From Fibrobacterota bacterium (GTDB lineage: Bacteria; Fibrobacterota; Fibrobacteria; UBA11236): DNA of 36,057 nt. The notes below the pieces were generated by a model. It made no database searches. It worked only from the letters and a program-made list of their open reading frames with translations, and was not told the origin of the DNA. Positions within the stretch are counted from its first letter, which is position 1; every line of letters begins with the position of its first letter. Made by a program: the position numbers and the translations under genes. The DNA lies in the NCBI GenBank assembly GCA_028287505.1, contig JAQBPN010000111.1:1-36057 (forward strand), in the 5' to 3' direction. This document shows positions 11,163-30,291 of this stretch, piece by piece.

Positions 11163-11933
11163 TTGAAATCGCTTGGCCTCCTGTTTACGCTGCTTTTGAC
11201 GGGGTGTCTCTATTCCGTGCACCATTTCAATACCGGCGTCCTGATGCCGGCCGGGCGGAGCCAAAGCACTTTGGGCGTGGGACGGCAACCCCGATGGAGC
11301 TGCCTGCATTACCATACGGATTCGACGGTTGCGGAGCATGCCTGCAACGAGAACGACAGCGGCGTCGAAGTGGCCCGCAAAACGGATATTTTCAAGGGAA
11401 GCTTCAACTACCGTTTGGGCGTGAAAGACAAGTGGGGGCCTTTCCCCGGCGCCGAATTGGAATGGCATGTGGAAGCGCCCACCGGTCCGGTGACGATGGA
11501 GTTCGCCATGAATCTCGCGATGCCCACGGGTAACCCCGCGCCTACCGCCGCCTCCTTCCACCATAAACTGGGGGCGGGCTGGGGGATCGGGGCCTGGGCC
11601 GACAATTCCTTCTTCATGGAATACGCGGCCTCCAAAAGCGCGGGCCGTCCGCTTTTCTTCGGTAACCTGCGCGGTACCTACCTGGCCACCCAGATCAACG
11701 ATGTGCTCGGAGACGATTTCTCGAAGCCGCTGCCCAGCCGGCGTTTGCTGATTTTCCAGGCGGGCCTGGGGGTTTCCTACCGGCTTCCCGATTGGCCGGT
11801 TGCGCCGGACTTCATTATTCCGCAACTCAACGTGACCCTGCCCCAGGTGCCCGCGGGGGATCAGAAGTTCAAGCATGACGACATCCCCTGGGTGCAATGG
11901 GATATGAATTTCGGATTCGGGTGGGCCTTTTGA
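11163..11933 (+). CDS. Outer-membrane lipoprotein paired with a TonB-dependent receptor (copy 2)
   Basis: The 256-residue paralogue of the 2690-3538 product starts at TTG 11163, ten bases after AGGTGA. The signal peptide is short and the lipobox is LLTGC with Cys15, followed by LYSVHHFNTG. Shared blocks with copy 1 include YRLGV, HKLGAGWGIGAWADNSFFMEYAAS and RGTYLATQ. Alternating strands suggest a small barrel or beta-sandwich on the outer membrane. The stop TGA at 11931-11933 overlaps the TTG start of the receptor gene, the same coupling as in copy 1, so the pair appears to have been duplicated as a unit. The molecular function is unknown; assisting receptor assembly or substrate capture fits the arrangement. 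Confidence 0.85.
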   Translation: MKSLGLLFTLLLTGCLYSVHHFNTGVLMPAGRSQSTLGVGRQPRWSCLHYHTDSTVAEHACNENDSGVEVARKTDIFKGSFNYRLGVKDKWGPFPGAELEWHVEAPTGPVTMEFAMNLAMPTGNPAPTAASFHHKLGAGWGIGAWADNSFFMEYAASKSAGRPLFFGNLRGTYLATQINDVLGDDFSKPLPSRRLLIFQAGLGVSYRLPDWPVAPDFIIPQLNVTLPQVPAGDQKFKHDDIPWVQWDMNFGFGWAF

Positions 11934-14471: not shown

Positions 14472-14665
14472 GCCGGTTTCCCGGATTCAGGATAGTTTTC
14501 AAAGAAGCCGAAAAAACGCAATCCGATTACCCGGCCCGCAAGGGCATACGTCGGAACAAAACCCGGTCTCGTCGAAGCGATCCAAACCGCCCAAGCCGAA
14601 AGCTCGCGTGTTTTCGCGCTATGGGGAACGGATCACAATGCCGCAGCGCGGCAAAGGAAACGGAA

Positions 14666-17428
14666 ATGAACTCAGGCATGGGTCTATTCTTAAAAGCCGC
14701 GGCAGTCGCCTCGCTTTCTCTCGCCCTGGGCGCCGCTTTCGGGCAGACCGCGCCGCCGGCGGAGTTGAACCTGAAGGGAAAGGTCCGGGACTTCGTCGAA
14801 GCCAATCCCACCAAGACCCCGGCCCATCCCCATTTCTACGGCGCCAAACCGCATCAGGCCGGATGCAGTTCCCAGGAAGCCGGCGTCAACATCGTCCAGC
14901 TGGATATCGACACCACCAACGCGGTGGGCGACACCTCCATATTCAAAGGGGACAATCGCGGACCAAGGCTTGTGGTCCCCCTGGATCCCAGGGTGTCCCA
15001 ATGCTTCGATCCCGTGGACCGCTTCGGCGATTGGTACAACGATAAGCCCGCCGGGGACGTGAACCGGTCCTTTCTCATCGACATCAAGTTCACCCGCAAT
15101 CCCGCCACCGGCGTCTATGAATATTTCGACGATAACTTCTTCCCCATCGACAACGGCAAGACCTTCACGGCGCTGGGCCCCAATCCTCCCTTCGGCCATC
15201 TGCTGCCCGGAGCCGATGCGGCCCACGACTACGGATTCACAATGGAGTTCCACGCCAACTTCACCTATTTCAAGGGCACGGCCCAGACCTTCACCTTCCG
15301 CGGGGACGATGACGTGTGGGTTTTCATCAACGGCAAACGGGTGATCGATCTGGGCGGCATCCACGTGGCCCAGGACGCCTCCTTCAATCTGGATGCCGTC
15401 GCGGCCGCCATCGGGTTGCAGGACAGCCTGGTCTATCCCCTGGACTTCTTCTTCGCGGAAAGGCATACCACCACCTCCAAGCTCAGGATCACCACCACCC
15501 TGGAGCTGGAACCCCTGCTGGGCAAGCCCATCCTGACGCCGGGCGGCTATTTCGAGGGCCAGATCGCCGTCACCGCCCTCCACTCCTCCCCGGCCGTCAC
15601 CCTGTATTACACCACCGACGGTTCCACGCCCACCACGGCTTCGCAGAAGTACACCGGCCCCATCACCCTGTCCGCCACCACCACCCTCAAGGTCATCGCC
15701 ACCCGTCCCGGCTGGCGCACCAGCGAAGTGGTCACGGAGACCTACACGAAGATGGAAACCGTGGCCACCCCTGAGGCCAATCCCCTGGGCCGGATTTTCG
15801 TGAACCCGATCCAGGTGGCCATCACGGATGCCACGCCCGGGGCCGTGATCCGCTATACCCTGGACGGCTCGGTTCCCGATACGACCAGTCCCGTCTACTC
15901 CGGCCCGCTGACCTTCACCCAGACCACCACCTTGAAGGCCAAGGCTTTCCTGACCAACTGGGTGGCCAGCGGCGTGATGACGGAAGTCTACACGGATGCG
16001 GGCACCCTGGTCCCTCCCGTGGCCAATCCTTCCGGCGGCGGGTTCACGGGTTCGCAAACCGTCTCCCTTTCCGTGCCCGGCTTCCCGGCCGCCGAGATCC
16101 GCTTCACCGTGGACGGCTCCGAGCCCACGGAGGCCAGTCCCTTGTATACGGCGGCCCTGACCTTCACCCAGACCACCACGCTCAAGGCCAAGGCTTTCCT
16201 CAAGGATTGGAAGCCCAGCCAGACCATGGTGGAGGAGTACCGGCGCCTGGCCGCCACCGTGAACGCCGTCTATATCGATGCGGACGGGAACGGACGCATC
16301 GACGGCGCGGTGATCCATCTGGACATCGCCGCCACCGGCGTCCCGTCCAACGTCATCCTGATCGATCCCTTCACCAAGGCCCCGGCCACGTTCGCCTCCA
16401 GCACGATTACCCAGGCGGCTCCGGACCTGCTCGTGGTGCGCTTTCCGGATCGGCAGTTTTCCCCGGGAACGGTCTTCGCCCCTTCCCTATTGGGTTCCTT
16501 CCCCAACGCGCCCGGCTTCGGTCCTCTGCCTTTCATGGTTTCCGATTCCGTGGGGCCGGTTCCCGTCAAGGCGGTATCCCACAACAAGACCACGCCGGAG
16601 GAACGGCCTTCCGTGGACATCACCTTCAGCGAACCCATCGATCTGGCGGGAATCCAGGCGGGCCGCTCCTGGCCGTTCGACATCATCCGCAACGGCGGGA
16701 CGCAGGGCGGGGCGGTGATCGTCCTCTCCATCGAAGCGGTTCCCGGCCAGGCCAATACCTATCGCTGGACCTTCGATGTCAATTCCCCCGCCTTTCCCGT
16801 TTTCATCGACAGCCTGTCGCTGGCCGTCAGCCCCGTGCTCCATGATGCCTTGGGCAATCCGGATGTGGCCGGGGGCAAGCGTATCCCGGTGGAGGGCGAG
16901 CCGCAGCTGGTCAAGAACCCGATGGTGATCGTGGTGACCAACCCCATCGTTTCCGAAAAGGCGGATCCCCAAACGACCCTTCCGCCGGAAGTAATCCGGA
17001 ATCCCTTCGGTGTCGTCGTGGTCACCTTCGACAACCAGGTTTGCCTGAACTGCCCTCCCGGCACGGAAAACGTATTCACGCCCAACCATGCCTTGCCGGA
17101 ATGGGTGATCAAATCCAAGTACGCGTTCCATTACAACTTCACGATTTTCGATCACCTGGGGAATTACATCAACAAGACCCAGGGTCAGGTCACGGAAGCC
17201 ATGATCGCGAAAATCCCCCTGGAAGCGGACGGCTATCGCTCCCTGCGTTTCCGGTGGATCCCCATCGCGCACAACGGGGCGGCGGTGGGTACCGGCGCCT
17301 ATATCCTGAAGGGCATGGTGCAGAACCACCTCAATGAGGCGCAGACGGGCGGCCAGGGAGAGAGCCAGGTGGTGCAGCAGTCGCAGACGGCCGTGTTCGC
17401 CACCTTCGGGTATTTGCGGCAGAATTAA
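14666..17428 (+). CDS. Fibro-slime domain protein with three chitobiase-type C-terminal repeats
   Basis: The 920-residue protein has a signal peptide (MNSGMGLFLKAAAVASLSLA, cleavage near FGQ). A fibro-slime domain covers about 40-281 with its hallmark FTFRGDDDVWVFINGK (208-223) and VIDLGGIH. Three CHB_HEX_C-type beta repeats follow at about 288-361, 369-443 and 452-525, each with the pattern YTxDGSxPT...Y...TTTLKA. After these come a calcium-loop-like DADGNGRID (538-546) and an Ig-like FSEPIDL module. Fibro-slime domains are known from surface and adhesion proteins of Fibrobacter and some other bacteria; carbohydrate attachment is the likely role. There is no recognisable catalytic domain and no full sorting domain at the end. 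ATG 14666 follows AAGGAAA; an upstream in-frame codon at 14621 would put a poor leader before the signal peptide. A ThuA-like gene starts 64 bases downstream. Confidence 0.9.
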   Translation: MNSGMGLFLKAAAVASLSLALGAAFGQTAPPAELNLKGKVRDFVEANPTKTPAHPHFYGAKPHQAGCSSQEAGVNIVQLDIDTTNAVGDTSIFKGDNRGPRLVVPLDPRVSQCFDPVDRFGDWYNDKPAGDVNRSFLIDIKFTRNPATGVYEYFDDNFFPIDNGKTFTALGPNPPFGHLLPGADAAHDYGFTMEFHANFTYFKGTAQTFTFRGDDDVWVFINGKRVIDLGGIHVAQDASFNLDAVAAAIGLQDSLVYPLDFFFAERHTTTSKLRITTTLELEPLLGKPILTPGGYFEGQIAVTALHSSPAVTLYYTTDGSTPTTASQKYTGPITLSATTTLKVIATRPGWRTSEVVTETYTKMETVATPEANPLGRIFVNPIQVAITDATPGAVIRYTLDGSVPDTTSPVYSGPLTFTQTTTLKAKAFLTNWVASGVMTEVYTDAGTLVPPVANPSGGGFTGSQTVSLSVPGFPAAEIRFTVDGSEPTEASPLYTAALTFTQTTTLKAKAFLKDWKPSQTMVEEYRRLAATVNAVYIDADGNGRIDGAVIHLDIAATGVPSNVILIDPFTKAPATFASSTITQAAPDLLVVRFPDRQFSPGTVFAPSLLGSFPNAPGFGPLPFMVSDSVGPVPVKAVSHNKTTPEERPSVDITFSEPIDLAGIQAGRSWPFDIIRNGGTQGGAVIVLSIEAVPGQANTYRWTFDVNSPAFPVFIDSLSLAVSPVLHDALGNPDVAGGKRIPVEGEPQLVKNPMVIVVTNPIVSEKADPQTTLPPEVIRNPFGVVVVTFDNQVCLNCPPGTENVFTPNHALPEWVIKSKYAFHYNFTIFDHLGNYINKTQGQVTEAMIAKIPLEADGYRSLRFRWIPIAHNGAAVGTGAYILKGMVQNHLNEAQTGGQGESQVVQQSQTAVFATFGYLRQN

Positions 17429-17492: not shown

Positions 17493-18476
17493 GTGAAAAA
17501 GCAGCTTCGTCGTTCTCCGGGGCAAGTGGCGGCCATCGCCCTGCTCTCAGTCGGTTTCGCAACTTCGTTCGCGCAATCTCCGTTCAAGATCTTCATGATC
17601 GCCTCCAAGGCTTCGGATCACATCGCCATGAGCACGGCCGCCAAGGGCGTGATCGAGCAGATGGGCGCGAACAACAACTTCACCGTGGACTATACCACGG
17701 ATACCAGCCTCATCAGCGAGGCCAACCTGGCCAAGTACGATGTGTTCTTCCAATGCCACCTGGCTCCCTTCGAGTTCTCCGTGAGCAAGCGGGCCGGGTT
17801 CGAGAAGTTCGTCGAGTCCGGGAAGGGATGGGTGGGCATCCATGCCGCGGGTCTCACCGGCACCCAATTCACCGGGAGCAGCTGGGCGTGGTACCAGACC
17901 TTCTTCGGCGACATCACCTGGGTGGTCCATCCGGCCTTGCAGACGGGAACCATCCTCTTCGAGGACCGCACCCATCCGGTCACCAAGAACATGCCGGCCT
18001 CCTTCCAGCTCAAGGACGAATGGTACGAGTGGAACAAGAATCCCCGTCCCAACGTGCGCGTGCTGGGCAAGGCCGATGAGACCAGCTATCATCAGGTGAA
18101 GCCCCAAGGCGATCACCCCATGATCTGGACCAACGAGACCTACCGGAAAATGGTGTACATCGGCATCGGCCACGACGTGAGCGACTGGTCCAATCCCAAT
18201 TACGTCCTGCTCATACACGATGCCTTGATGTGGGCCAAACCCGCCGCCACGCGCCTGGATCCGGGCGCCACGGAAAAAGGCTACCTGGGATCGCCGAAGG
18301 CGGCCAGGGCCTGGATGAAAGACGGGATGATCTTCGTCGATCCGGGAGCGGCGCCCGGCGCCACCGGGGATCGGGCGCGGGAATCGATCCGCATCCTGGA
18401 TTTGAGCGGTCGCGACCTGTCCATGCAGGGATTGGACGCGTTCCGGTTCCGCCGGCTGGCGGCCCCGGCTCCTTAA
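17493..18476 (+). CDS. Secreted ThuA-like protein (subtype A)
   Basis: The 327-residue protein starts at GTG 17493 after AGAGG and has a signal peptide (MKKQLRRSPGQVAAIALLSVGFATSFAQ). It has a ThuA domain of the class I glutamine-amidotransferase-like fold: SGKGWVGIHAAG, then WAWYQTFFG, RTHPVTKNMP, KDEWYEWNKNPRP, GDHPMIWTN and IGIGHD. ThuA was named from the trehalose/3-keto-trehalose utilisation locus of rhizobia; the exact reaction of secreted members is not settled. Its DEWYEW/NPRP/GDHP(M/V)IW pattern groups it with the 24931-26037 protein rather than the other three. The C-terminus has a shortened sorting-like segment (SIRILDLSGRDLS) without the usual final strand. The stop overlaps that of the convergent gene (TTAA at 18473-18476). 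It may be read through from the fibro-slime gene. Confidence 0.88.
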   Translation: MKKQLRRSPGQVAAIALLSVGFATSFAQSPFKIFMIASKASDHIAMSTAAKGVIEQMGANNNFTVDYTTDTSLISEANLAKYDVFFQCHLAPFEFSVSKRAGFEKFVESGKGWVGIHAAGLTGTQFTGSSWAWYQTFFGDITWVVHPALQTGTILFEDRTHPVTKNMPASFQLKDEWYEWNKNPRPNVRVLGKADETSYHQVKPQGDHPMIWTNETYRKMVYIGIGHDVSDWSNPNYVLLIHDALMWAKPAATRLDPGATEKGYLGSPKAARAWMKDGMIFVDPGAAPGATGDRARESIRILDLSGRDLSMQGLDAFRFRRLAAPAP

Positions 18477-20482: not shown

Positions 20483-20820
20483 TGATGGCCCCTATGTCGC
20501 GAATGCGCGGTTTTGATGCGACTGGGAATACTATGACCGAAGCCGGGGACAAAATCAATCGCCTCGTTTTCACGGGCTCAAACACCGAAAAAATCCACGG
20601 GGAGTTTGGGAAAGTTCAGAGGGAGTTTTGGCGTCCTGCACGTTTGCTTGGGTCTTGACGGGGCTGCCCGCCAGGGTGCATGCGTTAACGGATTTTGAGC
20701 GTGATCTTGGGGAGGATTCGCGGTATTTGGTGCGGCGGGAGGCGTTCGCCGCCGCGGCCGGGCGGGGGGCCGGGCAAATCCGGGGCCCCGTTCACGGGCC
20801 CCGCGTAAGAAAGCGCTTTC
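20483..20820. other. 338-base non-coding stretch
   Basis: I see no gene here. The left part should hold the promoter of the minus-strand gene that starts at 20482. The right part carries the 3' hairpins of the cellulase gene: CGGGGCCC/GGGCCCCG (20781-20803) and GCGGCG/CGCCGC (20732-20752). A loose direct repeat GGGAGTTT occurs twice near 20600-20630. Confidence 0.6.
20781..20803 (-). terminator. GC-rich hairpin downstream of GH9 gene
   Basis: CGGGGCCC (20781-20788) pairs with GGGCCCCG (20796-20803) across a 7-base loop, 18 bases beyond the GH9 stop. On the minus strand it is followed by GGATTTGCC, so there is only a weak T-run. Confidence 0.5.
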
Positions 20821-20821
20821 T
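20808..20821. promoter_or_regulatory. Perfect 14-base palindrome at the end of the GH9 gene
   Basis: AGAAAGCGCTTTCT is a perfect palindrome that touches the GH9 stop codon. Its GCGC centre is like LacI-family operators, but its position at the gene's 3' end is unusual. It could equally form a small hairpin (AGAAA/TTTCT with loop GCGC) in a termination region. Confidence 0.3.
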
Positions 20822-22878
20822 CAGGGCAACAGGACCGGGCGGGATTCCCGCGCGCCGATGCGGACGCAGTAGACGCCCGCTTCCAGCGCGGGCACGGCGA
20901 AGGTGGCGGCGCTGCGTCCTTTCGCCATCGTCCAGGCCGCGGCTTTTTTTCCGGCCAAGGTGTAGAGCGCCACGGGCGTTTCGGATGCGGCGGGCCCGGA
21001 CAGTTCCAGGGAGAGTCCCTGGCGCGAGAGGCCGACCTTGGAGGCCGGCGGCCGCTGCGCATCCGGCTCCGGCCGGATCGCCTGGATTCCCGTGGTGGAA
21101 GGGGCCTGGACCATGGCGGCGGTGGCCGTCAGGAACCATCCGGAATGCGGGATCCATTGTTCGATCCAGCGCCATTCGTTGCCGCCGTCGGTGGTTTTCC
21201 AATCTATCCCGGTACCATCCCCGTTACCCTTCTTGCCGGTGACGCCGTTGGCGATGCCGCCTTTGTTGGTTCCGTGGCCGAACAGGGCGGTGATGAGGGG
21301 CGGATTGGTCTTGCCGAATCCGTGCATGAAGGTGACGCCGAAGGGATTCCGCCCCAGGATCCAGGCAAGCTGCTGGGAGGCGAAGTCCGCCAGGGAATCC
21401 TTCACGCCCCAGCCGTTGGCGGCGGGATAGACCAGCCGGCCGCCCAGTATGGCCGCGGCCGCCAGCGAACCCAGGCGCGCGTTTTCCCCCTGCCACCACC
21501 ATCCGGTTTCATTGTCCTGGGGAATGAAGAAGCCGTCCTTGACCGCTCCCTGGTAGAGAAAGCTCTGGCGCGCGTAGCCGAAAGGATTGGCCACGTTGTG
21601 GGTGACGGACAGCTCGTAGTCCAGCGCCTTCTTGATGGTGGAAAGGGCCGTCGTGCGCGAGGCGGCGTCCGTCTCCTTGTCCAGGTAGCGGACCAGGGAA
21701 ACGATGGGCAGGCCCGCGTCCGCCGCATGCCAGAAGGGCCGATTGGTATCGTTGGCGCGGAAATAGCCGGCGGGGGTCATGCGGCCCGCCAGGTTGTTCA
21801 TCCGCTTGCGGGCTTCATCCCGGTAGAAGGAACTGTCGGTGGCGATCCAGAGTTCCGTGGAGGCCATCAGGGCGCAGAAATCGTCGATGACGTTCTCCTT
21901 CCCGTCGTCGTCATAGGCCTTGTTATTGATGAGCAGGTGGGCGTACGCCTTCTTGGCTCCGTCCAGGTAGTTCTGCGAAGTGAAATAGGTCCCGTTCTTT
22001 TTCCACTGGGAGATGCGCGCCAGGGCGGCGATGGCCATGCCGCCGCCGGAACGGAACGACGCCTGCCAGCGGTTGTTGGTCTTGCTGTCCGCCAAGAGGC
22101 CCACGATGCGGCGGTCGCCCGCATTCTGGCTGAAGAAGCTGAACACCACCATGTGGAAATAACCTTCCGGCGCCATGGCGCGGTACAGATAGTCGGCGCC
22201 CCACAGGGCCTCCGCCTGCATGCCGTCCTTGCTGCCGGTCTCGGTCAGCAGCGCCGGGATGCGCTCGTAGGCGTCGGTAAGCTCCCAGGTGACCATGGGC
22301 GTCTGCTGGGGTCCGATGAAATTCGAATAGGCCAGGTGGGAAAAGTATTTGCTGACATCGCCGGACGCATCGCACCAGCCGCCGCGCATGTCGACTTTCT
22401 TGGAGCCGTCGTTGACCAGCACCGCGGCATCCGCGGCCCATTCCTGCGCCGAGGTGGCCCGCTGCTTGAAGTAATAGCTCACGATGGACGGGATGGTGAG
22501 TTTGGCGAGGGCGTTTTCTCCGATCTGGAAAGGCTCGGAGGTGACCTGGGTCCCGTTGAGGGTGGCCCGCACCCGGTAGGTGCCGGCCTTCTGCACGCCG
22601 GAGAAGTCCGCGCTGTAATAGGATTTCCCGGGAGTCCACTCCGCGATCGTTCCAGCATTCACGAGGGTATCGGTCGCTTCCACGGTGGAAGTGGCGTCGT
22701 CGATCAGGGTGGCCGTGACCGTCCCGGACAGGGCCGCGTCGGCCTGGACCAACGCGGTCTTGGGGCCGCGCACATCATAGGCGACCTGGTTGACGAAGAT
22801 CGCCGATGCCGAGACGGAGGCGGGAACGGCAAAAGCGGCGCACAGCGCCGCGGCTTTGAAGGGACTGGAAGTGCGCAT
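20821..22878 (-). CDS. Secreted GH9 family cellulase (endoglucanase)
   Basis: The 685-residue protein has a signal peptide (MRTSSPFKAAALCAAFAVPASVSASA) and an N-terminal CelD-type Ig-like domain (about 27-120: FVNQVAYDVRGPKTALV, then YYSADFSGVQKAGTYRV). A GH9 catalytic domain covers about 125-595. The catalytic-base region reads GGWCDASGDVSKYFSH (166-181; Asp170 and Asp174). The probable acid is in GGNEWRWIEQW (Glu568 in NEW). AWILGRNPFGVTFMHGFG matches the conserved GxNPxxxSFVTGFG-type motif of the family. Residues 616-685 form a sorting-like domain (VALYTLAGKKAA, then AGVYCVRIG). GH9 enzymes hydrolyse beta-1,4-glucan with inversion; the enzyme is predicted to act outside the cell. It is the last gene of the minus-strand run, 25 bases after a ThuA gene. 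Confidence 0.93.
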   Translation of the reverse strand: MRTSSPFKAAALCAAFAVPASVSASAIFVNQVAYDVRGPKTALVQADAALSGTVTATLIDDATSTVEATDTLVNAGTIAEWTPGKSYYSADFSGVQKAGTYRVRATLNGTQVTSEPFQIGENALAKLTIPSIVSYYFKQRATSAQEWAADAAVLVNDGSKKVDMRGGWCDASGDVSKYFSHLAYSNFIGPQQTPMVTWELTDAYERIPALLTETGSKDGMQAEALWGADYLYRAMAPEGYFHMVVFSFFSQNAGDRRIVGLLADSKTNNRWQASFRSGGGMAIAALARISQWKKNGTYFTSQNYLDGAKKAYAHLLINNKAYDDDGKENVIDDFCALMASTELWIATDSSFYRDEARKRMNNLAGRMTPAGYFRANDTNRPFWHAADAGLPIVSLVRYLDKETDAASRTTALSTIKKALDYELSVTHNVANPFGYARQSFLYQGAVKDGFFIPQDNETGWWWQGENARLGSLAAAAILGGRLVYPAANGWGVKDSLADFASQQLAWILGRNPFGVTFMHGFGKTNPPLITALFGHGTNKGGIANGVTGKKGNGDGTGIDWKTTDGGNEWRWIEQWIPHSGWFLTATAAMVQAPSTTGIQAIRPEPDAQRPPASKVGLSRQGLSLELSGPAASETPVALYTLAGKKAAAWTMAKGRSAATFAVPALEAGVYCVRIGARESRPVLLP

Positions 22879-22903
22879 GGGGATTCTTTCTGGCTATGTC
22901 TGG

Positions 22904-23863
22904 CTATGGGACTCTTCGGACTTCACGTCCGGGCAAATCGTATTCCGCCTTGCCGGCGCCGGTTTTGACCGCAGTCATGCCCGCGCCTTTCAGGTGGAAA
23001 CCGGATGCCGGGGTCTTGCTCCCCGGCTTCGCGAAGGCGGCGATGTCCGTGGGATTCACGCCGCCGAAGGAGAGCAGGGCGTTTAGGAAGAGTTTGTTCT
23101 GGATGTCGTTGGCGAAGGTCTCGGAATCCTTGCCCGTTCCGGGGCTGTTCAAATCGTTGTGGCCCATGTTCACGTAGAGCATATGGTATTTCACGTTGGT
23201 CCAGGCCACGGGATAGTAGCCGCTATGCCAGATTTCCTCGGGCTTGGGGCCGGTGCCCAGGGGAAAACTGGAAGGGTCGATGGACAGCAGGATTTTGATG
23301 TCCGGCTTGGTCTTGAGATCCACCTTCCAACGGTACCATTCGTTGGGGGAGGATTTGAAAAGGGGCGGGAGGCCCTTGGTCAGGACGGTGGAACTGTCCT
23401 CCAGCTTCAGGAAAGCGGAAGTGGGCCGCCAGGTATTGCTCACGTACTCGCCGGAACCGAAGAACGTATTGTGGTACCAGTCCCAGTTGGTGGGCTGTTG
23501 GGAGCCGTTCAGCTCGAAGGCGGAACCATGGCATCCTATGAATCCGCCGCCGGCTTCGATATACTTCTGGAAAGCGGAGCGCTGCCCGGCGTCTTCCGGG
23601 CGCTCATCCATGAAGATCACCACCTGGTATTGGGACAGCTTGGCCGTATTGCAATCCGTCCATACCTTGGTGGAGTCGTATGTGAATCCGTATTGCTTTC
23701 CCATCTTGGGCAGCCAGCGATTCGCCTCGTGCTCATAGCTGACGTGGCCCGCATCGTCCTTGGAGGTGGAGAAGCCCAGCACCTTGAAGGTGGGAGCGAC
23801 ATCCGCCGACAGGGCGCTGACGCAGGCGAGAAGGGAAAGGCAGAATACGGAATGCTTGATCAT
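22904..23863 (-). CDS. Secreted ThuA-like protein (subtype B, short tail)
   Basis: The 319-residue protein has a signal peptide (MIKHSVFCLSLLACVSALSA). Its ThuA domain contains VVIFMDERPED, AGGGFIGCHGSAF, WDWYHNTFFGSGEYV, SPNEWYRWKVDL, SIDPSSFPLGTGPKPEEIW, PVAWTNVKYHMLYVNMGHND and a final NALLSFGG helix. It is strikingly similar to its upstream neighbour (23860-24882), so it probably arose by tandem duplication. The start ATG lies in the stop of that gene (ATGA overlap), implying coupled translation. The C-terminus stops just after AEYDLPGREVRRVP. That matches the D-x-x-GR-x-V strand of the sorting domain on other proteins here, but the remainder is absent. The reaction is not known; keto-sugar processing is inferred from family and neighbours. 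Confidence 0.9.
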   Translation of the reverse strand: MIKHSVFCLSLLACVSALSADVAPTFKVLGFSTSKDDAGHVSYEHEANRWLPKMGKQYGFTYDSTKVWTDCNTAKLSQYQVVIFMDERPEDAGQRSAFQKYIEAGGGFIGCHGSAFELNGSQQPTNWDWYHNTFFGSGEYVSNTWRPTSAFLKLEDSSTVLTKGLPPLFKSSPNEWYRWKVDLKTKPDIKILLSIDPSSFPLGTGPKPEEIWHSGYYPVAWTNVKYHMLYVNMGHNDLNSPGTGKDSETFANDIQNKLFLNALLSFGGVNPTDIAAFAKPGSKTPASGFHLKGAGMTAVKTGAGKAEYDLPGREVRRVP

Positions 23864-24882
23864 TTATGGGAACCTTTTTCGGGGACGATGTTACGTCCGT
23901 GGATATCGAACCGGGGGGGGTTGGAATCGCGCCGGCCGGACTTGGAAACCGTCATGCTTGCCCCGTCCAGGCTGAATCCCTTGGCGGTATGCGCGACGGC
24001 TTGCACGGCTTTGCCCGCGGGGGCGACGGCCGTAGGGGGCGTGATGCCGCCGAAGGACAAGAGGGCGTTGGTGATCATCTTGTTCTGGGTTTCATTGGCG
24101 AACGTCTGCGACTTGTCCTTGTTGCCGGCCGCGTAGTCGATATCGTTGTGGCCCATGTTCAGGTACAGCATCTTGTATTTGACGTTGGTCCAGACGACGG
24201 GATAGTAGCCGCTGTGCCAGATTTCCTCCGGCTTGGGACCCGTGCCCAGGGGAAAACTGGACGGATCGATGGAGGCCAGGATTTTGATGTCCGGATTCGA
24301 TTTCCAATCGTAACTCCAGCGGTACCATTCGTTGGCGGAGGCCTTGAACAGAGGGGGAAGGCCCGCCATATAGGGAGAGGTGCTGTCCTCCACCTTGAGG
24401 AAGGCGGGAGTGGGGGCCCAGGTGTTGCTCACGTATTCATTGGAGCCCAGGAAGGTCTTATGGTACCAATCCCAGTTCTGCACCACGCCCGAGGCATTCA
24501 TGGCAAAGGCGGCGAAATGGCAGCCGATCCAGGCGCCGCCGCCATCCATGTAGGTCTTGAAGGCGGTGCGTTGGGCGGCTTGCTCGGGCCGGTTGTCCAG
24601 GAACATCACCACCTTGTACTGGGCCAGCTTGGCGGCGTTGAGGTCGTTCCAGTTCTCGGTGAAGTCGACCTGGAATCCGTTTTGCAGAGCCAGTTTGGGC
24701 AGGTAGATTTTGGCTTCCTTCATGTAACTGTCATGCCCCACGTCGCCCGATACGGGATCGAACGCGAGCACCTTGAACTTGGGCGCGGTCTGCGCCGTGG
24801 CGGCGCCCAGAAATGCGGCCATGGCCGTGCAGAGGACGGATGTCCTCACCATTGCGAAAATACGAAGTCCCACCGAATGCAT
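23860..24882 (-). CDS. Secreted ThuA-like protein (subtype B, short tail)
   Basis: The 340-residue protein begins at ATG 24880-24882 after GGGAG on the minus strand. A signal peptide ends near GAATAQTA. ThuA-domain blocks are KVLAFDPVSGDVGHDSYMKEA, VVMFLDNRPEQAAQR, GGGAWIGCHFAAFAMN, WDWYHKTFLGSNEYVSNTW, ANEWYRWSYDW, SIDPSSFPLGTGPKPEEIW and MLYLNMGHNDIDY. Compared with typical ThuA domains it keeps the GxH turn and the GHND end. It is the closest relative of the next gene. The tail (PRFDIHGRNIVPEKGSHK) again looks like a sorting domain cut after its GR motif, followed by a basic end. It is 48 bases downstream of the subtype A gene. Confidence 0.9.
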   Translation of the reverse strand: MHSVGLRIFAMVRTSVLCTAMAAFLGAATAQTAPKFKVLAFDPVSGDVGHDSYMKEAKIYLPKLALQNGFQVDFTENWNDLNAAKLAQYKVVMFLDNRPEQAAQRTAFKTYMDGGGAWIGCHFAAFAMNASGVVQNWDWYHKTFLGSNEYVSNTWAPTPAFLKVEDSTSPYMAGLPPLFKASANEWYRWSYDWKSNPDIKILASIDPSSFPLGTGPKPEEIWHSGYYPVVWTNVKYKMLYLNMGHNDIDYAAGNKDKSQTFANETQNKMITNALLSFGGITPPTAVAPAGKAVQAVAHTAKGFSLDGASMTVSKSGRRDSNPPRFDIHGRNIVPEKGSHK

Positions 24883-24930
24883 ATCGTCTCCCTCGGCCCC
24901 ACCGAGTGTTTCAATATCGAAATCGATCCT

Positions 24931-26037
24931 TCAGCGCAATTCCAACCATTGCGAAAAACGATCCGTCTCCGTAGCCGTCCGTACCAGGTATCGTCCGGCA
25001 TTCCAATGCGAGCGGTCGACCCGGTCGCCCAAGTCCTTGCCGGCCGCATGGTACAAGGTCCGGCCCGATGCGTCCAGCACGTCGATGCTGCGCAGGCTCG
25101 CGCCCGGCGCGGAGATGGTGATGTAACGGCTGTCTGAGCCCAACTGGATGCGGCCCGCGGCGGCGATTCCCTTTTCATCGGACCGGTTGCCCGGCTTGAC
25201 GGAGGTGGGCGCGGGCTTGTTGGCGACCCACATGACGGCATTCCTGAGCAAGGTGGTGTAGGCCGTGTTGGTGAAGAGGTTGGGATGATGGCCCATGAAA
25301 ATGTACAGGTTCCTGGCCTTGAGATTGTCGTTGGTCCAAATCACGGGATGGTCGCCCATCTTGGTGCCGCTCTGGGACGGATCGACGAACTTATAGGAGC
25401 TTTCATCGACGTTCGCCAGCACGTGCACCTTGGGACGGGGGGTCTTGTCCCAGGTGTACCATTCCTCGGTGGATACGTTGAAGGTGGTGGGCACGCCCTT
25501 GAACAGCGCGTGGGTGGAATCCTCCAGGCGGACGTTTCCGGAGGCGAACTTGGAGATGTAGTTCTTGTAGTTGATGCCGCCTATCAGGTTGTTGAAGTAC
25601 CACGGCCACGTCTCGCTGGTGACCGCCGAACCGTACAGGGTCGCGTGGTGATCGCCCAGCCAGCCGCCCTTGCCGCCGTCCAGGTATTTCTCGAGGGCCG
25701 CCTTGGCGGTCGCGTTCCAGCGGAACGGGGTGTAGTTCATCTGCCAGACCAGATCCACCTTGCTCAGCATGGTGTCCGTGATCGTGTTGGGATTGTCCAG
25801 ATACGTCACCGTGAAATTGCTGTCCGCGCCCAGCTTGTTCAGCCAAATCTTTGCGGCTTCGACATAGGGCCGGTGGATTTCATTCCCGTCGGCATTGCTG
25901 GGATCCAGCAGCTCGGCGATCACGAGCACGCGGAATCGCGGCGCGGGAGCCTGGGTGCGCGCCTCGGAGGCGAAGCCGAGGGCCGCCGCAAGCATGAGTC
26001 CTGGAAGTGTCGTCCGAAAAAAAAGAGTGTTGCGCAT
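24931..26037 (-). CDS. Secreted ThuA-like protein with full sorting domain (subtype A)
   Basis: The 368-residue protein has a signal peptide (MRNTLFFRTTLPGLMLAAALGFASEA). The ThuA domain covers about 33-282: VDLVWQMNYTPFRW, GGKGGWLGDHHATLYG, TWPWYFNNLIGG, EDSTHALFKGVP, TEEWYTWDKTPRPKVHVL, MGDHPVIWTN and IFMGHHPN. Residues 295-368 are a sorting-type beta domain (SIDVLDASGRTLYHAAG, then WNAGRYLVRTATE). It resembles the 17493-18476 protein more than its operon neighbours: both have TPRP/NPRP, DESSY/DETSY and GDHP(M/V)IW. Gaps are 21 bases to the DUF1080 gene upstream and 48 to the next ThuA downstream. It probably works outside the cytoplasm on a sugar derivative; the chemistry is not shown by the sequence. 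Confidence 0.9.
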   Translation of the reverse strand: MRNTLFFRTTLPGLMLAAALGFASEARTQAPAPRFRVLVIAELLDPSNADGNEIHRPYVEAAKIWLNKLGADSNFTVTYLDNPNTITDTMLSKVDLVWQMNYTPFRWNATAKAALEKYLDGGKGGWLGDHHATLYGSAVTSETWPWYFNNLIGGINYKNYISKFASGNVRLEDSTHALFKGVPTTFNVSTEEWYTWDKTPRPKVHVLANVDESSYKFVDPSQSGTKMGDHPVIWTNDNLKARNLYIFMGHHPNLFTNTAYTTLLRNAVMWVANKPAPTSVKPGNRSDEKGIAAAGRIQLGSDSRYITISAPGASLRSIDVLDASGRTLYHAAGKDLGDRVDRSHWNAGRYLVRTATETDRFSQWLELR

Positions 26038-26058
26038 AAATGCCTTTGCAATTCCCGA

Positions 26059-27111
26059 TCAGGGAATCAGGATTCTTCTGAGCGCCGTCCGGCCTTCCGC
26101 GGCCAGCCTGGCGAAATAAATCCCGGGTTTGATGCGGGAGGAAAGCCGGTACGAGTTGGCTCCGGGAGCCGATCCGGAGAAAACGCTCCGGCCGTCCAGG
26201 CCGATGATTTCCAGGGAATGGGGTCCGGGAAAGGATACCTCCAGCCCCACCGCGCCGCCCATGCGGACCGGCGAACCCAGGTAACGCGCCAGGGACCCAT
26301 CCGGGCCGGTTGCGCTCTTGGCCACCGATGTGCCTGTGCAGGTGCCGTTGTCCTGGTACACGGCGGGCTGCTTGGGGAAACCCTGCACGAACGCACCGTC
26401 GTAATTGGGCGAGGCCGCGTCGCCGCAGCCTTGCAGGAGCATGATGTTCCGGAAGCGGATGTCGATGGCGTAGCCCTCGTGAACCTGCAAGGCGAAGGAG
26501 CCGGGATTCTTGGCATAGGTGGAGGTGGCGTAGTTCACGGCGGCCTTGGCGCCCGCGGCCAACAGGGTCGGATCGGTTTCGCCCAGGGCCTGGCTTCCGT
26601 TCACGTTCACGTAGATGTAGGGCTTCTTGACGGTCAGCACCACGTCCTGGTACTCGTCCACCTTGGGGGCGGTCTTAATGGAATAGGCCCGGGTATGCTG
26701 GGCCCCGGGCTCCCATCCTGGCGTGGGCCAAGTGTATATGGATCCGATTTCGAGCAGTTCGGCGCCTTCCCGTTTGATTTCCACCTGCGGGCCCGCGACG
26801 TCGTCAGGGGTGGTTCCCTTGGTGTGGAACCAGAAGCCGCTGCATCCGGTCTTGAGCCGGTACGCGTACTTCACGGTGAATTCATCGTAGTCGGCTTTGG
26901 TGGTGAAAAGCAGGGAGTGCGGCGTATTGGTGGTGGTCGAGAGGCCCCCGATGGAGCTGTCCTTGGAGTCGATGGTCCAGAAGGTGGAATCGCCCACGAA
27001 GCGCCAATCCGGCTTGAACGACTTGCCGTTGAAAAGCGGCTTCCAGCCGGTTTTGGCCGGAGCCAAGCCGGCGGTGGCCAGGGAAAGGAGAAGGATGGAA
27101 AGTCTTCGCAT
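26059..27111 (-). CDS. Secreted DUF1080 (3-keto-disaccharide hydrolase family) protein with sorting domain
   Basis: The start is ATG 27109-27111, six bases after AAGGAA; the longer open frame upstream overlaps the previous gene and gives no signal peptide. The product is 350 residues: leader MRRLSILLLSLATAGLAPA, then a DUF1080 concanavalin-like domain (about 22-227) with the family opening GWKPLFNGKSF, YDEFTVKYAYRLKTGCSGFWF, GPQVEIKREG and RFRNIMLLQG. Members of this family cleave 3-keto-glycosides in Bacteroides and related bacteria. Residues 277-350 form a full sorting domain (SLEIIGLDGRSVFSG, then IKPGIYFARLAAEG). The gene is 25 bases after the dehydrogenase gene and 21 bases before a ThuA gene, so it fits a keto-sugar pathway. 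Activity is inferred from family and context. Confidence 0.9.
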   Translation of the reverse strand: MRRLSILLLSLATAGLAPAKTGWKPLFNGKSFKPDWRFVGDSTFWTIDSKDSSIGGLSTTTNTPHSLLFTTKADYDEFTVKYAYRLKTGCSGFWFHTKGTTPDDVAGPQVEIKREGAELLEIGSIYTWPTPGWEPGAQHTRAYSIKTAPKVDEYQDVVLTVKKPYIYVNVNGSQALGETDPTLLAAGAKAAVNYATSTYAKNPGSFALQVHEGYAIDIRFRNIMLLQGCGDAASPNYDGAFVQGFPKQPAVYQDNGTCTGTSVAKSATGPDGSLARYLGSPVRMGGAVGLEVSFPGPHSLEIIGLDGRSVFSGSAPGANSYRLSSRIKPGIYFARLAAEGRTALRRILIP

Positions 27112-27136
27112 GTAAATTCCTTGCCGGTGCGGGCGA

Positions 27137-28843
27137 TCAGTCCTGAAAATAGCGCAGCTGCAGCATTCCGTTCGCCACCGAAGCGGGAATGGTGCGGGTG
27201 ATCCGGGCCGCGCCGTCGGACCGGGGGGATTCCCAGACCAGGCGGCCATCGGTTCCGTAGGCCTCGGCCCGCTTGATGCCGGCGGGCAAGGTCACTTCCG
27301 TGTTTCCCCCCATGTGCGCCACCCGGACCCGCTGGGCCAGGAGGCCGGCCAGGCGCGAAGCGGTGGGCCGGTTGCTGACGGTGAAACAGGCTCCCTTGTA
27401 GGCGACCCGGTAGATGCGGGCCACGCTGGAGGCGTTGAAGTTGATGCCGTCCCCGCGCGCCACGTAGAAGGCGCCGTCCGCCCCTTGGGTGGCTTTCAAC
27501 ACGTCGGTGGTGAACGGGCTGGCCGAGAACAGTTTGTCCAGCCGCGTCACCTTGCCGTTGGCGTCCACGGTGGCCACGTTCACGTCCGCGGAGCCGTAAG
27601 CGGAGACAAGGGCCTTGCCCTCCAGGAACGGGGGCCATTTGGCCTTGCTGTCGAGCATCGGATCGTACTTCACCCAGCCCCAGGTCACGCCCAGGCAGGT
27701 GTTGGCGAGTTTGAACGCGCCGGTGGCGATGGAAATGGCCGCGGGGATGGCGGGCGGCAGCACCTTGAGCCCGGTGTTCTGCTTCGACTCGTTGGGAGTG
27801 GCCTGGGGATTGGCGAACGGGTTGAGGGCGCCCTGGTAGTTGGGCTTGTTGTACGGTACGTTGTTGCCGGCCCAGAACGGCCATCCGAAAAAGCCCGGGA
27901 CCGTGGTCACGTTCACTTCGTCCTCGCCGCCGGCCCCGTCGTCGTCCATGCCGCCGGCTTCCCCGATGACGAGCCAATGTTTTGCCGGATCGGGATGGAT
28001 GCCGATGGAGAAAGGATTGCGATGGCCCATGGTGTAGACCTCCGGGCGGGTATTGGCCGTGCCGGGCGGAAACAGATTGCCGGCGGGAATCTCGTACGTG
28101 GTCCCTACTCCGGGCGCGGGGGTTTCCGTGTCCGGAAAGCGCAAGGGCCGGATTCGCAGGGTCTTGCCGCGCAGATCGTTCGTGTTCGCCGAGGTGGAGC
28201 GCACGTCGCTGTAGGGGTTCGCGTCCTGGTAGGGATTGGTGTTGGAATAGTTCCAATGGATGTTGTCGCCCGTAGTCATCCAGATGTTACCGTCGGAGCC
28301 GAACTCCACGTCCCCGCCGAAATGGCAGCACTGGGCGTAAATCTTGTACTCCAGGATCGTCTTCTCCGTGGTCATGTCCACTTCTTTGTCGTTGTTCTTC
28401 AGGGTGAAGCGCGACAGCCGTTCGATGGGACCCAGGCTGTGGGCGGACAGTCCGGTGAGTTTGCTGGCCGGAACCGCATAGCGGATATAGACCCAATGGT
28501 TGATCGCGAACTCCGGATCCAGGGTCAAGCCTTCCAGGCCGGTTTCCACCGCCAGGTAATACTGGGACGCGCCCGGACTGGAGGAGAGGACCTCGAAGTT
28601 CTTGATGGTGGTGACGGCCTTGGTGGCCGGGTCCCACGATTTGAACGCGCCGGTTCTTTCCACCCAATAGATTTTTCCGTCCTTGGCGGCGGCGATATCC
28701 ATGGGCGTGCCCGGCGCCATCGCCACTTCTTCGATGGTGAAGTCGCTTTGGGGGGGCATGGTGGTGCAGCTTTGCGAATAGGCGCGCTCCGCAACCGCTG
28801 TGGCGGCGAGGGAGGCGATGACGGCTATTTTCAATGCGTTCAT
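27137..28843 (-). CDS. Secreted PQQ-dependent sugar dehydrogenase (glucose/sorbosone dehydrogenase family)
   Basis: The 568-residue protein has a signal peptide (MNALKIAVIASLAATAVAERAYSQ) and a six-bladed propeller of the GSDH family. Motifs are GTPMDIAAAKDGKIYWVERTG (46-66, the opening strand), TGLEGLTLDPEFA (101-113), CHFGGDVEFGSDGNIWMTTGD (173-193, with the His-Gly-Gly usual in this family), LRGKTLRIRP (224-233), TMGHRNPFSIGIHPD (271-285) and GEAGGMDDDG (294-303). The C-terminal 65 or so residues form a sorting-type beta domain (RAEAYGTDGRLVWESP). Soluble family members use PQQ and calcium to oxidise aldose sugars at C1; whether this one oxidises C1 or another position is open. It is the first gene of the six-gene run and has a 262-base regulatory region before it. 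Confidence 0.9.
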   Translation of the reverse strand: MNALKIAVIASLAATAVAERAYSQSCTTMPPQSDFTIEEVAMAPGTPMDIAAAKDGKIYWVERTGAFKSWDPATKAVTTIKNFEVLSSSPGASQYYLAVETGLEGLTLDPEFAINHWVYIRYAVPASKLTGLSAHSLGPIERLSRFTLKNNDKEVDMTTEKTILEYKIYAQCCHFGGDVEFGSDGNIWMTTGDNIHWNYSNTNPYQDANPYSDVRSTSANTNDLRGKTLRIRPLRFPDTETPAPGVGTTYEIPAGNLFPPGTANTRPEVYTMGHRNPFSIGIHPDPAKHWLVIGEAGGMDDDGAGGEDEVNVTTVPGFFGWPFWAGNNVPYNKPNYQGALNPFANPQATPNESKQNTGLKVLPPAIPAAISIATGAFKLANTCLGVTWGWVKYDPMLDSKAKWPPFLEGKALVSAYGSADVNVATVDANGKVTRLDKLFSASPFTTDVLKATQGADGAFYVARGDGINFNASSVARIYRVAYKGACFTVSNRPTASRLAGLLAQRVRVAHMGGNTEVTLPAGIKRAEAYGTDGRLVWESPRSDGAARITRTIPASVANGMLQLRYFQD

Positions 28844-29034: not shown

Positions 29035-29063
29035 GGGCCGCCCTCGAGGGGGGAAGGCGGCCC
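29035..29063 (-). terminator. Hairpin downstream of ThuA gene
   Basis: GGGCCGCC (29035-29042) pairs with GGCGGCCC (29056-29063). It lies 43 bases past the ThuA stop and before the promoter region of the six-gene run. On the minus strand it is followed by CATTTCCCTTC. It argues that the two units are transcribed separately. Confidence 0.5.
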
Positions 29064-29105: not shown

Positions 29106-30191
29106 TTAGTGCAAGGTGATGGTTTGCGTGGCGCTGCCGAGGGTGGAATTGGACTGGATGATGTAGAACCCTTTGCCGATGCGGTTCTTCTCGATGGAGT
29201 AGATGCCGTTGGCCGAGCGGCCCTGGGCGATTTTGTTCCCCTGGAGGTCCAGGATCGAGATCCCGAATTCGCCTAGGCCGGTCCTGGAAACGGTGAGCTC
29301 GGGATTGCCCATCTGGATTTGCATCTGGGGGTTGCCCTGGGCCGCATAGGCGCCGGTGGAGGTGGCTATCCTGCCGCCCAGCCAATTGATGGCGTTGAGG
29401 ATCAGTTGGCAATGCTGGGCGTTGGACCAGGTGAGGGATTTCGCTTTGTTGGCCGCGTAGTCCATGTCGTTATGGCCGCTGTTGCAATAGATCATCTTGA
29501 ACTTGGTGTTGGTCCAGACGATGGGGTTGTCGCCGCTGCGCCAGGATTGGTTGGGGTCCGTGCCCAGGGGATAGCTGGAAGGGTCGATGGAGCAGAGGAC
29601 CTTGATGTCCGGGTTCTTCCGCAAATCGTTGGTCCAGTTGTACCATTCGCTGGTCTCGGACTTGAAGGTCACGGGGAAGCCCTTGGTCACCGGATGGTTG
29701 ACGTCCTCCACCTTCATGGTGGCCGGGGTGGGGCCCCAGGTGTTGCTGCGGAACGCGCCGGCTCCCAGGAACTTGGTATGGTACCAGTCCCATTCCGAAG
29801 CGCTGGTGCAGAAGGCGCTGACGTGGTATCCGATGAAGCCGCCCCCGTTTTCCATGTACTTCTGGAAGCCGGCGCGGGCCGAGGCCGGGGGCTGATCGTC
29901 CATGAACATGACCACCTGGTACTTTTGCACCAGGGTGGGGTCGTTCAACATGTCCCAGTTCTTGGAAGAGTCGTAGGTGAAATTGTTCTGCTTCGCGAAA
30001 TTGGGAAAGAAGGCGTTGGACTCGTGGGCGTAATTGATGTGGGCCGCGTCATAGCCGGCCGAAAACAAGGCCAGCACTTTGAGGGGCGCCGTGTTGGTCT
30101 GCGCGTCCGCCAGGGACATGGAGGCGAGAACGGGAAAGCAGAAAATCATCGCTCCCAAAAAAGCCAAAGCACGTTCGTTCGATTGTCGCAC
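29106..30191 (-). CDS. Secreted ThuA-like protein with full sorting domain (subtype B)
   Basis: The start chosen is GTG 30189-30191, because GGGGAG (30196-30201) lies just before it and the product then begins MRQSNERALAFLGAMIFCFP, a normal signal peptide; an upstream GTG at 30227 would add 12 unlikely residues. The 361-residue protein has ThuA blocks VVMFMDDQPPASARAG, GGGFIGYHVSAF, WDWYHTKFLGAGAF, VNHPVTKGFPVTF, SEWYNWTNDLRKNPD, SIDPSSYPLGTDP, PIVWTNTKFKMIYCNSGHND. It groups with the 22904 and 23860 proteins. Unlike those two it keeps the whole sorting domain (FGISILDLQGNKIAQG, then IGKGFYIIQSNS). It is monocistronic, flanked by its own hairpins and by an upstream copy of the shared inverted repeat. 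Confidence 0.9.
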   Translation of the reverse strand: MRQSNERALAFLGAMIFCFPVLASMSLADAQTNTAPLKVLALFSAGYDAAHINYAHESNAFFPNFAKQNNFTYDSSKNWDMLNDPTLVQKYQVVMFMDDQPPASARAGFQKYMENGGGFIGYHVSAFCTSASEWDWYHTKFLGAGAFRSNTWGPTPATMKVEDVNHPVTKGFPVTFKSETSEWYNWTNDLRKNPDIKVLCSIDPSSYPLGTDPNQSWRSGDNPIVWTNTKFKMIYCNSGHNDMDYAANKAKSLTWSNAQHCQLILNAINWLGGRIATSTGAYAAQGNPQMQIQMGNPELTVSRTGLGEFGISILDLQGNKIAQGRSANGIYSIEKNRIGKGFYIIQSNSTLGSATQTITLH

Positions 30192-30195
30192 GGAT

Positions 30196-30201
30196 CTCCC
30201 C
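30196..30201 (-). promoter_or_regulatory. Shine-Dalgarno that decides the ThuA start
   Basis: On the minus strand AAAGGGGAG is followed by ATCC and GTG. This supports initiation at 30191 and not at the upstream GTG. Confidence 0.65.
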
Positions 30202-30291
30202 TTTGATTTCGGACACAGTCCAACCACTGCCGGTTCGAAAGTACCGCGGGCGGAAGCGGAAAAAATGGGGTGATTACGGTGATCGGGAAGT

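Follow-up and report, generated by a model that had tools for sequence, protein, structure and literature searches.

A Fibrobacterota gene cluster combining a predicted exo-type GH9 enzyme with three ThuA proteins and a DUF1080 protein

The exo-acting enzymes of glycoside hydrolase family 9 (GH9) known from Vibrionaceae, namely, VC0615, PBPRA0520, and VP2484, carry two loops that block the subsites beyond -1, and VC0615 and PBPRA0520 prefer the glucosamine (GlcN) dimer (GlcN)2 over cellobiose (PMC6096475). Descriptions of the Vibrio enzyme place it in a chitin operon and do not mention ThuA. Exported DUF1080 proteins described as putative 3-keto-glycoside hydrolases are CCNA_01705, which accompanies LacABC in Caulobacter, and BT2157 of Bacteroides; the periplasmic Caulobacter protein is a putative 3'-ketolactose hydrolase. 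The rhizobial thuAB locus for the 3-keto forms of trehalose and sucrose has a single ThuA with a Gfo/Idh partner, ThuB. Mutant fitness data tie NagX to glucosamine use, with acetylation of periplasmic glucosamine as its proposed activity (PMC9007349), and the GSDH propeller family includes the pyrroloquinoline quinone (PQQ)-dependent sGDH, E. coli YliI, and fungal AA12. Here, we analyzed a six-gene operon in which a GSDH-family gene, a DUF1080 gene, three ThuA genes, and a GH9 gene stand together in a Fibrobacterota bacterium (Fibrobacteria; UBA11236; GenBank assembly GCA_028287505.1). It lies on contig JAQBPN010000111.1, positions 1 to 36,057, and this whole stretch of 36,057 nucleotides is referred to as the window. 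We consider it about evenly balanced whether the operon represents, in Fibrobacterota, an exported module of exo-GH9 and ThuA subtypes A, B, and C that recurs across phyla, probably directed at amino sugars, here with DUF1080.

All six open reading frames (ORFs) are on the minus strand at positions 20821 to 28843, with intergenic gaps of 25, 21, 48, -4, and 25 bases, exactly as the initial annotation of this DNA had placed them. The family names given there were upheld by Pfam matches above the cut-off for every gene: GSDH, 3keto-disac_hyd (DUF1080), ThuA (three times), and CelD_N plus GH9. The DUF1080 protein scored 73.3 bits for PF06439, against a gathering score of 26.8; the longer start of its gene at 27249, given by the program, is a mere upstream extension. 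The count of three ThuA genes was right for the operon, but it had overlooked two adjacent ThuA genes, listed last below, and the 22 ThuA matches (21 genes) in the whole genome.

27137 to 28843, minus strand: GSDH-family propeller protein (PF07995; Pfam), first gene of the operon; export-type N terminus
26059 to 27111, minus strand: DUF1080/3-keto-disaccharide hydrolase family protein (PF06439; Pfam); export-type N terminus and type IX secretion system (T9SS)-like C-terminal tail
24931 to 26037, minus strand: ThuA1, subtype A (PF06283; Pfam and tree); export-type N terminus
23860 to 24882, minus strand: ThuA2, subtype C (PF06283; Pfam and tree); export-type N terminus and short C-terminal tail
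22904 to 23863, minus strand: ThuA3, subtype C (PF06283; Pfam and tree); export-type N terminus; 4-base overlap with ThuA2
20821 to 22878, minus strand: predicted exo-type GH9 (CelD_N plus GH9; Pfam and structure matches); export-type N terminus and T9SS-like tail
29106 to 30227, minus strand: upstream ThuA, subtype C (Pfam and tree); separate unit, kept in sister genome G004
17493 to 18476, plus strand: opposite-strand ThuA, subtype B (Pfam and tree); kept beside GH9 in sister genome G004

The conserved core of the operon is DUF1080-ThuA-ThuA-ThuA-GH9. An exo-GH9 gene was present in 3 of the 11 genomes compared, each time as a single copy and each time with DUF1080 and three ThuA genes, and its counterparts among the 10 relatives were confined to the sister genomes G004 and G005. 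Both have the order DUF1080-ThuA1-ThuA2-ThuA3-GH9, with exo-GH9 last, and the levels of amino acid identity to the window proteins are 59 to 67% (DUF1080), 64 to 67% (ThuA1), 66 to 68% (ThuA2), 72% (ThuA3), and 53 to 58% (GH9). G004 additionally retains the upstream ThuA, the opposite-strand ThuA, and the next gene. Since the core order is conserved in two sister genomes, the co-occurrence in the operon goes beyond chance. Neither G004 nor G005 has GSDH in its orthologous cluster, which makes this gene an optional member of the operon; as a member of the core it was ruled out. The closest GSDH relatives in the sister genomes, 53 to 55% identical, are located away from the cluster. Conserved co-occurrence, which the initial annotation had suggested looking for, was thus found for the DUF1080, ThuA, and GH9 genes but not for GSDH.

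By its sequence, the GH9 protein belongs to the exo-acting glucosaminidase/glucosidase subgroup of VC0615 and PBPRA0520. Its only relatives among solved structures, at an E value cut-off of 0.001, were 5dgq, 3h7l, and 6gdt (Vibrionaceae "endoglucanase-related"), with E values down to 1e-116. The alignment to these three spans residues 25 to 591, with at most small gaps, and runs through both exo loops, the positions of which, like the residue roles, were taken from PMC6096475. Both marks of the exo subgroup, an Ig-like domain at the N terminus and extended loops in helices 1-2 and 9-10, are present, as are the catalytic Asp segment (GGW.DASGD) and Glu segment (WRWIEQW); with the exo loops and catalytic segments of this subgroup, the enzyme is predicted to be no usual cellulase. 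An endo-acting cellulase, which the initial annotation had proposed, was rejected because solely exo-type structures matched and the protein does not show an open cleft with short loops; for comparison, the GH9 protein of locus L215 matches endoglucanases. Unlike the Vibrionaceae enzymes, the window enzyme has a signal peptide-like N terminus, a C-terminal sorting-like tail, and ThuA and DUF1080 neighbors. In a quick, midpoint-rooted tree of 82 GH9 sequences, a sample mostly of Bacteroidota, the three Fibrobacterota GH9 proteins formed one clade (99) inside Bacteroidota, as did a Verrucomicrobiota trio (100), and this nesting suggests that the exo-GH9 was acquired from Bacteroidota by transfer.

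Scanning genome contigs with the GH9 protein yielded 156 confirmed places, and the 80 best of these were retained. In the Bacteroidota and Verrucomicrobiota loci, ThuA was the commonest neighbor family of exo-GH9 (35 of 79 loci by clustering), and a profile search placed ThuA within 400 bp of exo-GH9, or fused to it, in 36 of 80. Five proteins were confirmed as GH9-ThuA fusions: in the three from Pedobacter (L153, L157, and L164), ThuA forms the C-terminal part, and in those from Puia (L166) and from a Flammeovirgaceae bin (L177), it forms the N-terminal part. A GH18-ThuA fusion (Chitinophaga arvensicola, L170) and a GH20-ThuA fusion (Hufsiella, L176) also occur in exo-GH9 loci. In the ThuA tree, window ThuA1 falls with GH9-linked members from Bacteroidota and Verrucomicrobiota into subtype A (23 rows; support, 99), the clade that includes the Bacteroidota ThuA domains fused to GH9, GH18, and GH20. 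Subtype C (20 rows; support, 99) holds ThuA2, ThuA3, and the upstream ThuA together with GH9-linked members of the same two phyla, and subtype B (support, 94) unites the opposite-strand ThuA with GH9-linked Bacteroidota members. All three subtypes stand beside GH9 in Daejeonella (L141) and Puia (L166), and most other ThuA paralogues of the genome lie outside subtypes A to C, where the long branches are unsure.

ThuA has relatives among solved structures. To our knowledge, no reaction is settled for the ThuA family. Whereas the rhizobial locus has one ThuA with its ThuB partner, the ThuA domains of the window belong to several proteins predicted to be exported, of three subtypes and accompanied by GH9, and no thuB-like gene was found in the operon. 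The aligned domains share an EWY motif and, close to their end, a GH, and the invariant residues, in the numbering of the aligned ThuA1 domain, include His32, His107, Glu169, and His227, with no invariant Cys; these four resemble a metal or acid/base site. A literature search, a weak test as subscription journals were largely uncovered, returned no publication describing the combination of ThuA with GSDH, GH9, or chitin, and the link of ThuA to exo-GH9 would be the part new to specialists. Two exo-GH9 loci, of Daejeonella (L141:15423-16922) and Dyadobacter (L186:12512-14053), also contain ThuA joined to a domain that resembles the formylglycine-generating enzyme (FGE-sulfatase).

The GH9-ThuA pairs and fusions often adjoin chitin or glucosamine genes, which argues that ThuA probably acts on amino-sugar glycans and not in cellulose oxidation. 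Among 105 neighbors of exo-GH9 outside Fibrobacterota, Pfam assigned 14 to ThuA, 5 to DUF5009 (NagX-like), 4 each to GH20 and GH18, and 3 to the mannose-type phosphotransferase system (PTS); GH3, with 2, was the only other glycoside hydrolase family among the 25 families shown. In 24 of 80 exo-GH9 loci, tblastn detected one or more NagX-like, GH18, GH20, NagB, or PTS genes, and GH20 is closely upstream of exo-GH9 in ~10 Mucilaginibacter loci. The DUF5009/HGSNAT-like neighbor proteins resemble NagX. The loci of the Bacteroidota pairs share GH18, GH20, NagX-like, NagB, and PTS genes with NagX-type glucosamine and chitin loci, whereas these amino-sugar genes are not present in the window and the Fibrobacterota core has DUF1080 instead. 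On contig C65 of this genome, a subtype C ThuA gene is ~1 kb from a GH20 gene. Judged by these neighborhoods in other phyla, the coupling to cellulose proposed in the initial annotation is less likely than a role on amino-sugar glycans.

The nearest homologues of the DUF1080 protein besides the two cluster orthologues (48 to 55% identity) are found in the window genome, G004, G005, G007, and G008. They adjoin a protein with no Pfam match (in L213, 539 amino acids long and porin-like on inspection) and, in varying combinations, a NagB/PIG-L-like (glucosamine-6-phosphate-deaminase-like) protein and a Nuc_H symporter; in G004, G007, and G008, a Gfo/Idh/MocA oxidoreductase stands beside them. These neighbors support 3-keto-glycoside chemistry in this branch of the DUF1080 proteins, and they touch again on amino sugars. 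For the window protein itself, such chemistry may be assumed at the family level. As in Caulobacter and Bacteroides, this would be an exported putative 3-keto-glycoside hydrolase; unlike those pathways, the window operon has neither LacABC nor Gfo/Idh/MocA and carries three ThuA genes and an exo-GH9 gene. Downstream of one DUF1080 paralogue, Pfam identified a multiheme cytochrome c (L213:5884-7140). Another protein downstream of a DUF1080 paralogue (L212:8876-9988) is multiheme cytochrome c-like by eye; together with the L213 protein, it could be an electron acceptor for sugar oxidation.

In the reading we favor, exo-GH9 would clip single residues from the nonreducing ends of beta-linked oligosaccharides outside the cytoplasm, most likely glucosamine and perhaps glucose too, so that glucosamine-type beta-glycosides would be the substrate. 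The ThuA proteins may act on the same chain or on an oxidized form of it, and DUF1080 would hydrolyze 3-keto-glycosides produced elsewhere. Several observations weigh against this picture. The exo-GH9 subgroup has a weaker but real activity on cello-oligosaccharides, and no residue is known in it that selects GlcN over glucose (PMC6096475). None of the amino-sugar genes sought was found in 56 of 80 loci, many of them from Flavobacterium with GH9-ThuA alone. The enrichment of such genes near exo-GH9 was counted without a random-locus comparison and is suggestive rather than measured. The NagX-like neighbors are weak over Pfam DUF5009, and one alone matches the NagX model, below its cut-off. No amino-sugar gene was recognized within the window itself, and a partner 3-dehydrogenase or other 3-keto-forming enzyme is absent from the window operon and the sister loci. 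The GSDH relative in G004 adjoins a xyloglucanase-like endo-GH9, hinting at plant glucans for the GSDH gene.

The lack of a GlcN-specific residue and the many loci devoid of amino-sugar genes would also suit a general exported module for beta-glucosides and 3-keto-glycosides, in which exo-GH9 acts on ordinary glucosides and DUF1080 and ThuA act on 3-keto forms that the cell or its neighbors would make with a membrane or secreted 3-dehydrogenase, amino sugars being one of several substrates. However, the GH18-ThuA and GH20-ThuA fusions, the NagX-like, NagB, and PTS neighbors, and the glucosamine-6-phosphate-deaminase-like protein beside DUF1080 paralogues indicate amino sugars, and we regard the general module as a real but rather unlikely explanation. 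A different proposal, very unlikely in our view, is that ThuA is an N-deacetylase, or another amide- or ester-removing enzyme, that prepares chitin oligosaccharides for a GlcN-specific exo-GH9, with keto chemistry not involved. The studied exo-GH9 does not cut the N-acetylglucosamine dimer (GlcNAc)2 (PMC6096475), which means that chitin breakdown through exo-GH9 requires deacetylation. The fusions of ThuA to GH18, GH20, and GH9 fit such a role, as does a set of invariant residues with three His, one Glu, and no Cys. This proposal is speculative, though: NagX, encoded in these loci, would work in the opposite direction by acetylating GlcN, and DUF1080 in the Fibrobacterota core speaks for keto chemistry. 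We know of no ThuA protein that has been shown to deacetylate.

The optional GSDH protein was aligned with 28 paralogues against YliI (L230), paralogue C65:39432 being left out. The catalytic His is kept in 28 of 29 proteins, Arg228 in all 29, and Asn229 in 24, whereas the anchors of the PQQ carboxylate (sGDH numbering) are nearly gone: Lys377 and Arg408 are in none of the 29, and Arg406, which we take to be a carboxylate-holding residue in sGDH, is in 4. The window protein has the catalytic His and the Arg-Asn quinone contact in common with sGDH, YliI, and AA12 but has Lys377, Arg406, and Arg408 replaced. Lys377 and Arg408 are PQQ contacts of sGDH, and Arg430 and Arg621 are the arginines conserved in bacterial enzymes (fungal-enzyme paper, PMC6881789). 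Nearly all GSDH proteins examined from the relatives also lack the carboxylate anchors. The biosynthesis genes pqqC and pqqE were not found in the window genome (98.7% complete) and exceeded the cut-off in only 1 of 11 genomes, G002, in which they lie side by side (G002:C65:6771-8868; L069 and L242); the aligned GSDH proteins of G002 are likewise without the anchors. A classical PQQ enzyme was rejected on these grounds, and with it the PQQ-type dehydrogenase that the initial annotation had supplying the keto sugar. Because PQQ uptake and other binding modes are possible, the cautious wording is that this is not a classical PQQ enzyme, and the GSDH-like propeller is best seen as an optional member predicted to lack classical PQQ binding. 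Two GSDH fragments, at the end of G000:C112 (query 10-358) and the start of G000:C64 (query 319-566), both 53% identical to the query, are probably one gene split by the assembly.

The whole genome has 47 GSDH matches (~45 genes) and 32 DUF1080 matches (31 genes), and same-genus relatives have 16 to 73 GSDH and 14 to 53 DUF1080 per genome; a protein search found almost no relative of the window GSDH in other families of the class. In a simple uniform-placement test, GSDH genes lay within 4 kb of DUF1080 and of ThuA genes more frequently than under random placement. This was also true outside the window contig, where GSDH lay within 4 kb of DUF1080 seven times (1.78 under random placement; P = 0.0015) and within 4 kb of ThuA four times (0.98; P = 0.016). 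The operon is therefore one of several such groupings. Gfo/Idh/MocA has 15 matches elsewhere in the genome, and the earlier description of an exported operon without this dehydrogenase was supported. This co-location, the catalytic His and Arg-Asn retained in GSDH, the xyloglucanase-like GH9 beside the G004 relative, and the cello-oligosaccharide activity of the exo-GH9 subgroup are what favor an extracellular route in which GH9 hydrolyzes cello-oligosaccharides or cellulose, the propeller oxidizes the sugars, and DUF1080 and ThuA cleave keto sugars. We consider this route improbable, as the GH9 is predicted to be no endo-cellulase, the PQQ anchors are gone and PQQ synthesis genes were not found, the sister clusters are without GSDH, and the cross-phylum neighbors of exo-GH9 are amino-sugar genes, not cellulase or beta-glucan genes.

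All six operon products look exported: by inspection, each N terminus combines a short run of K/R with a hydrophobic 10-mer (mean Kyte-Doolittle value, 2.3 to 2.9) and an AXA-like site, in agreement with the signal peptides noted previously. In a test for T9SS sorting tails (TIGR04183, Por_Secre_tail), the DUF1080 protein scored 19.8 bits, below the cut-off of 23, and tails similar to its own were seen by eye in GSDH, ThuA1, and GH9. A single transcription unit is plausible, since G+C-rich hairpins flank the six genes, as follows.

29035 to 29063, minus strand: terminator-like hairpin between the upstream ThuA and GSDH (terminator scan); possible 5' operon border, weak
20780 to 20821, minus strand: palindrome AGAAAGCGCTTTCT at the GH9 stop codon and hairpin CGGGGCCC...GGGGCCCCG (~20803 to 20780; by eye); possible 3' border

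A second hairpin, GGGCCC, was seen by eye between the upstream ThuA and GSDH. The hairpin after the GH9 stop codon was not called by the terminator scan, and the counts from the promoter and terminator scan of the region were not above chance, with terminator-like sites fewer than expected by chance. An Rfam search of the window gave no match. A perfect palindrome, GAAAGCGCTTTC, is located just after GH9 (20808 to 20821), with a second copy on contig C33 (L221:9745-9756), ~66 bases upstream of a GSDH-ThuA pair; it resembles a LacI-family operator. Elsewhere in the window are two TonB-dependent-receptor-like genes (3646 to 6090 and 11897 to 14398), both with a gene for a small protein, alike in the two cases, ahead of them (2717 to 3538 and 11217 to 11933), probably a duplicated pair, and a Fibro_Slime/PA14 protein (14621 to 17428) that carries three chitobiase C-terminal/Fn3-associated repeats in tandem.

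Fusions of ThuA to GH9, GH18, and GH20 in several genera point to a direct, testable substrate class, glucosamine-containing beta-glycosides, for a family that, like DUF1080, is common in environmental genomes. In this lineage, the label "PQQ-dependent sugar dehydrogenase," given by domain matches to dozens of genes per genome, is probably wrong. Tentatively, and at less than even confidence, ThuA would be a dedicated partner of beta-glucosaminidases and chitinases, and its three subtypes with exo-GH9 would form a mobile exported amino-sugar pathway in at least three phyla, linked in Fibrobacterota to 3-keto chemistry through DUF1080; alongside it, this lineage would have expanded GSDH propellers without PQQ anchors, of unknown cofactor or reaction, to dozens of exported copies.

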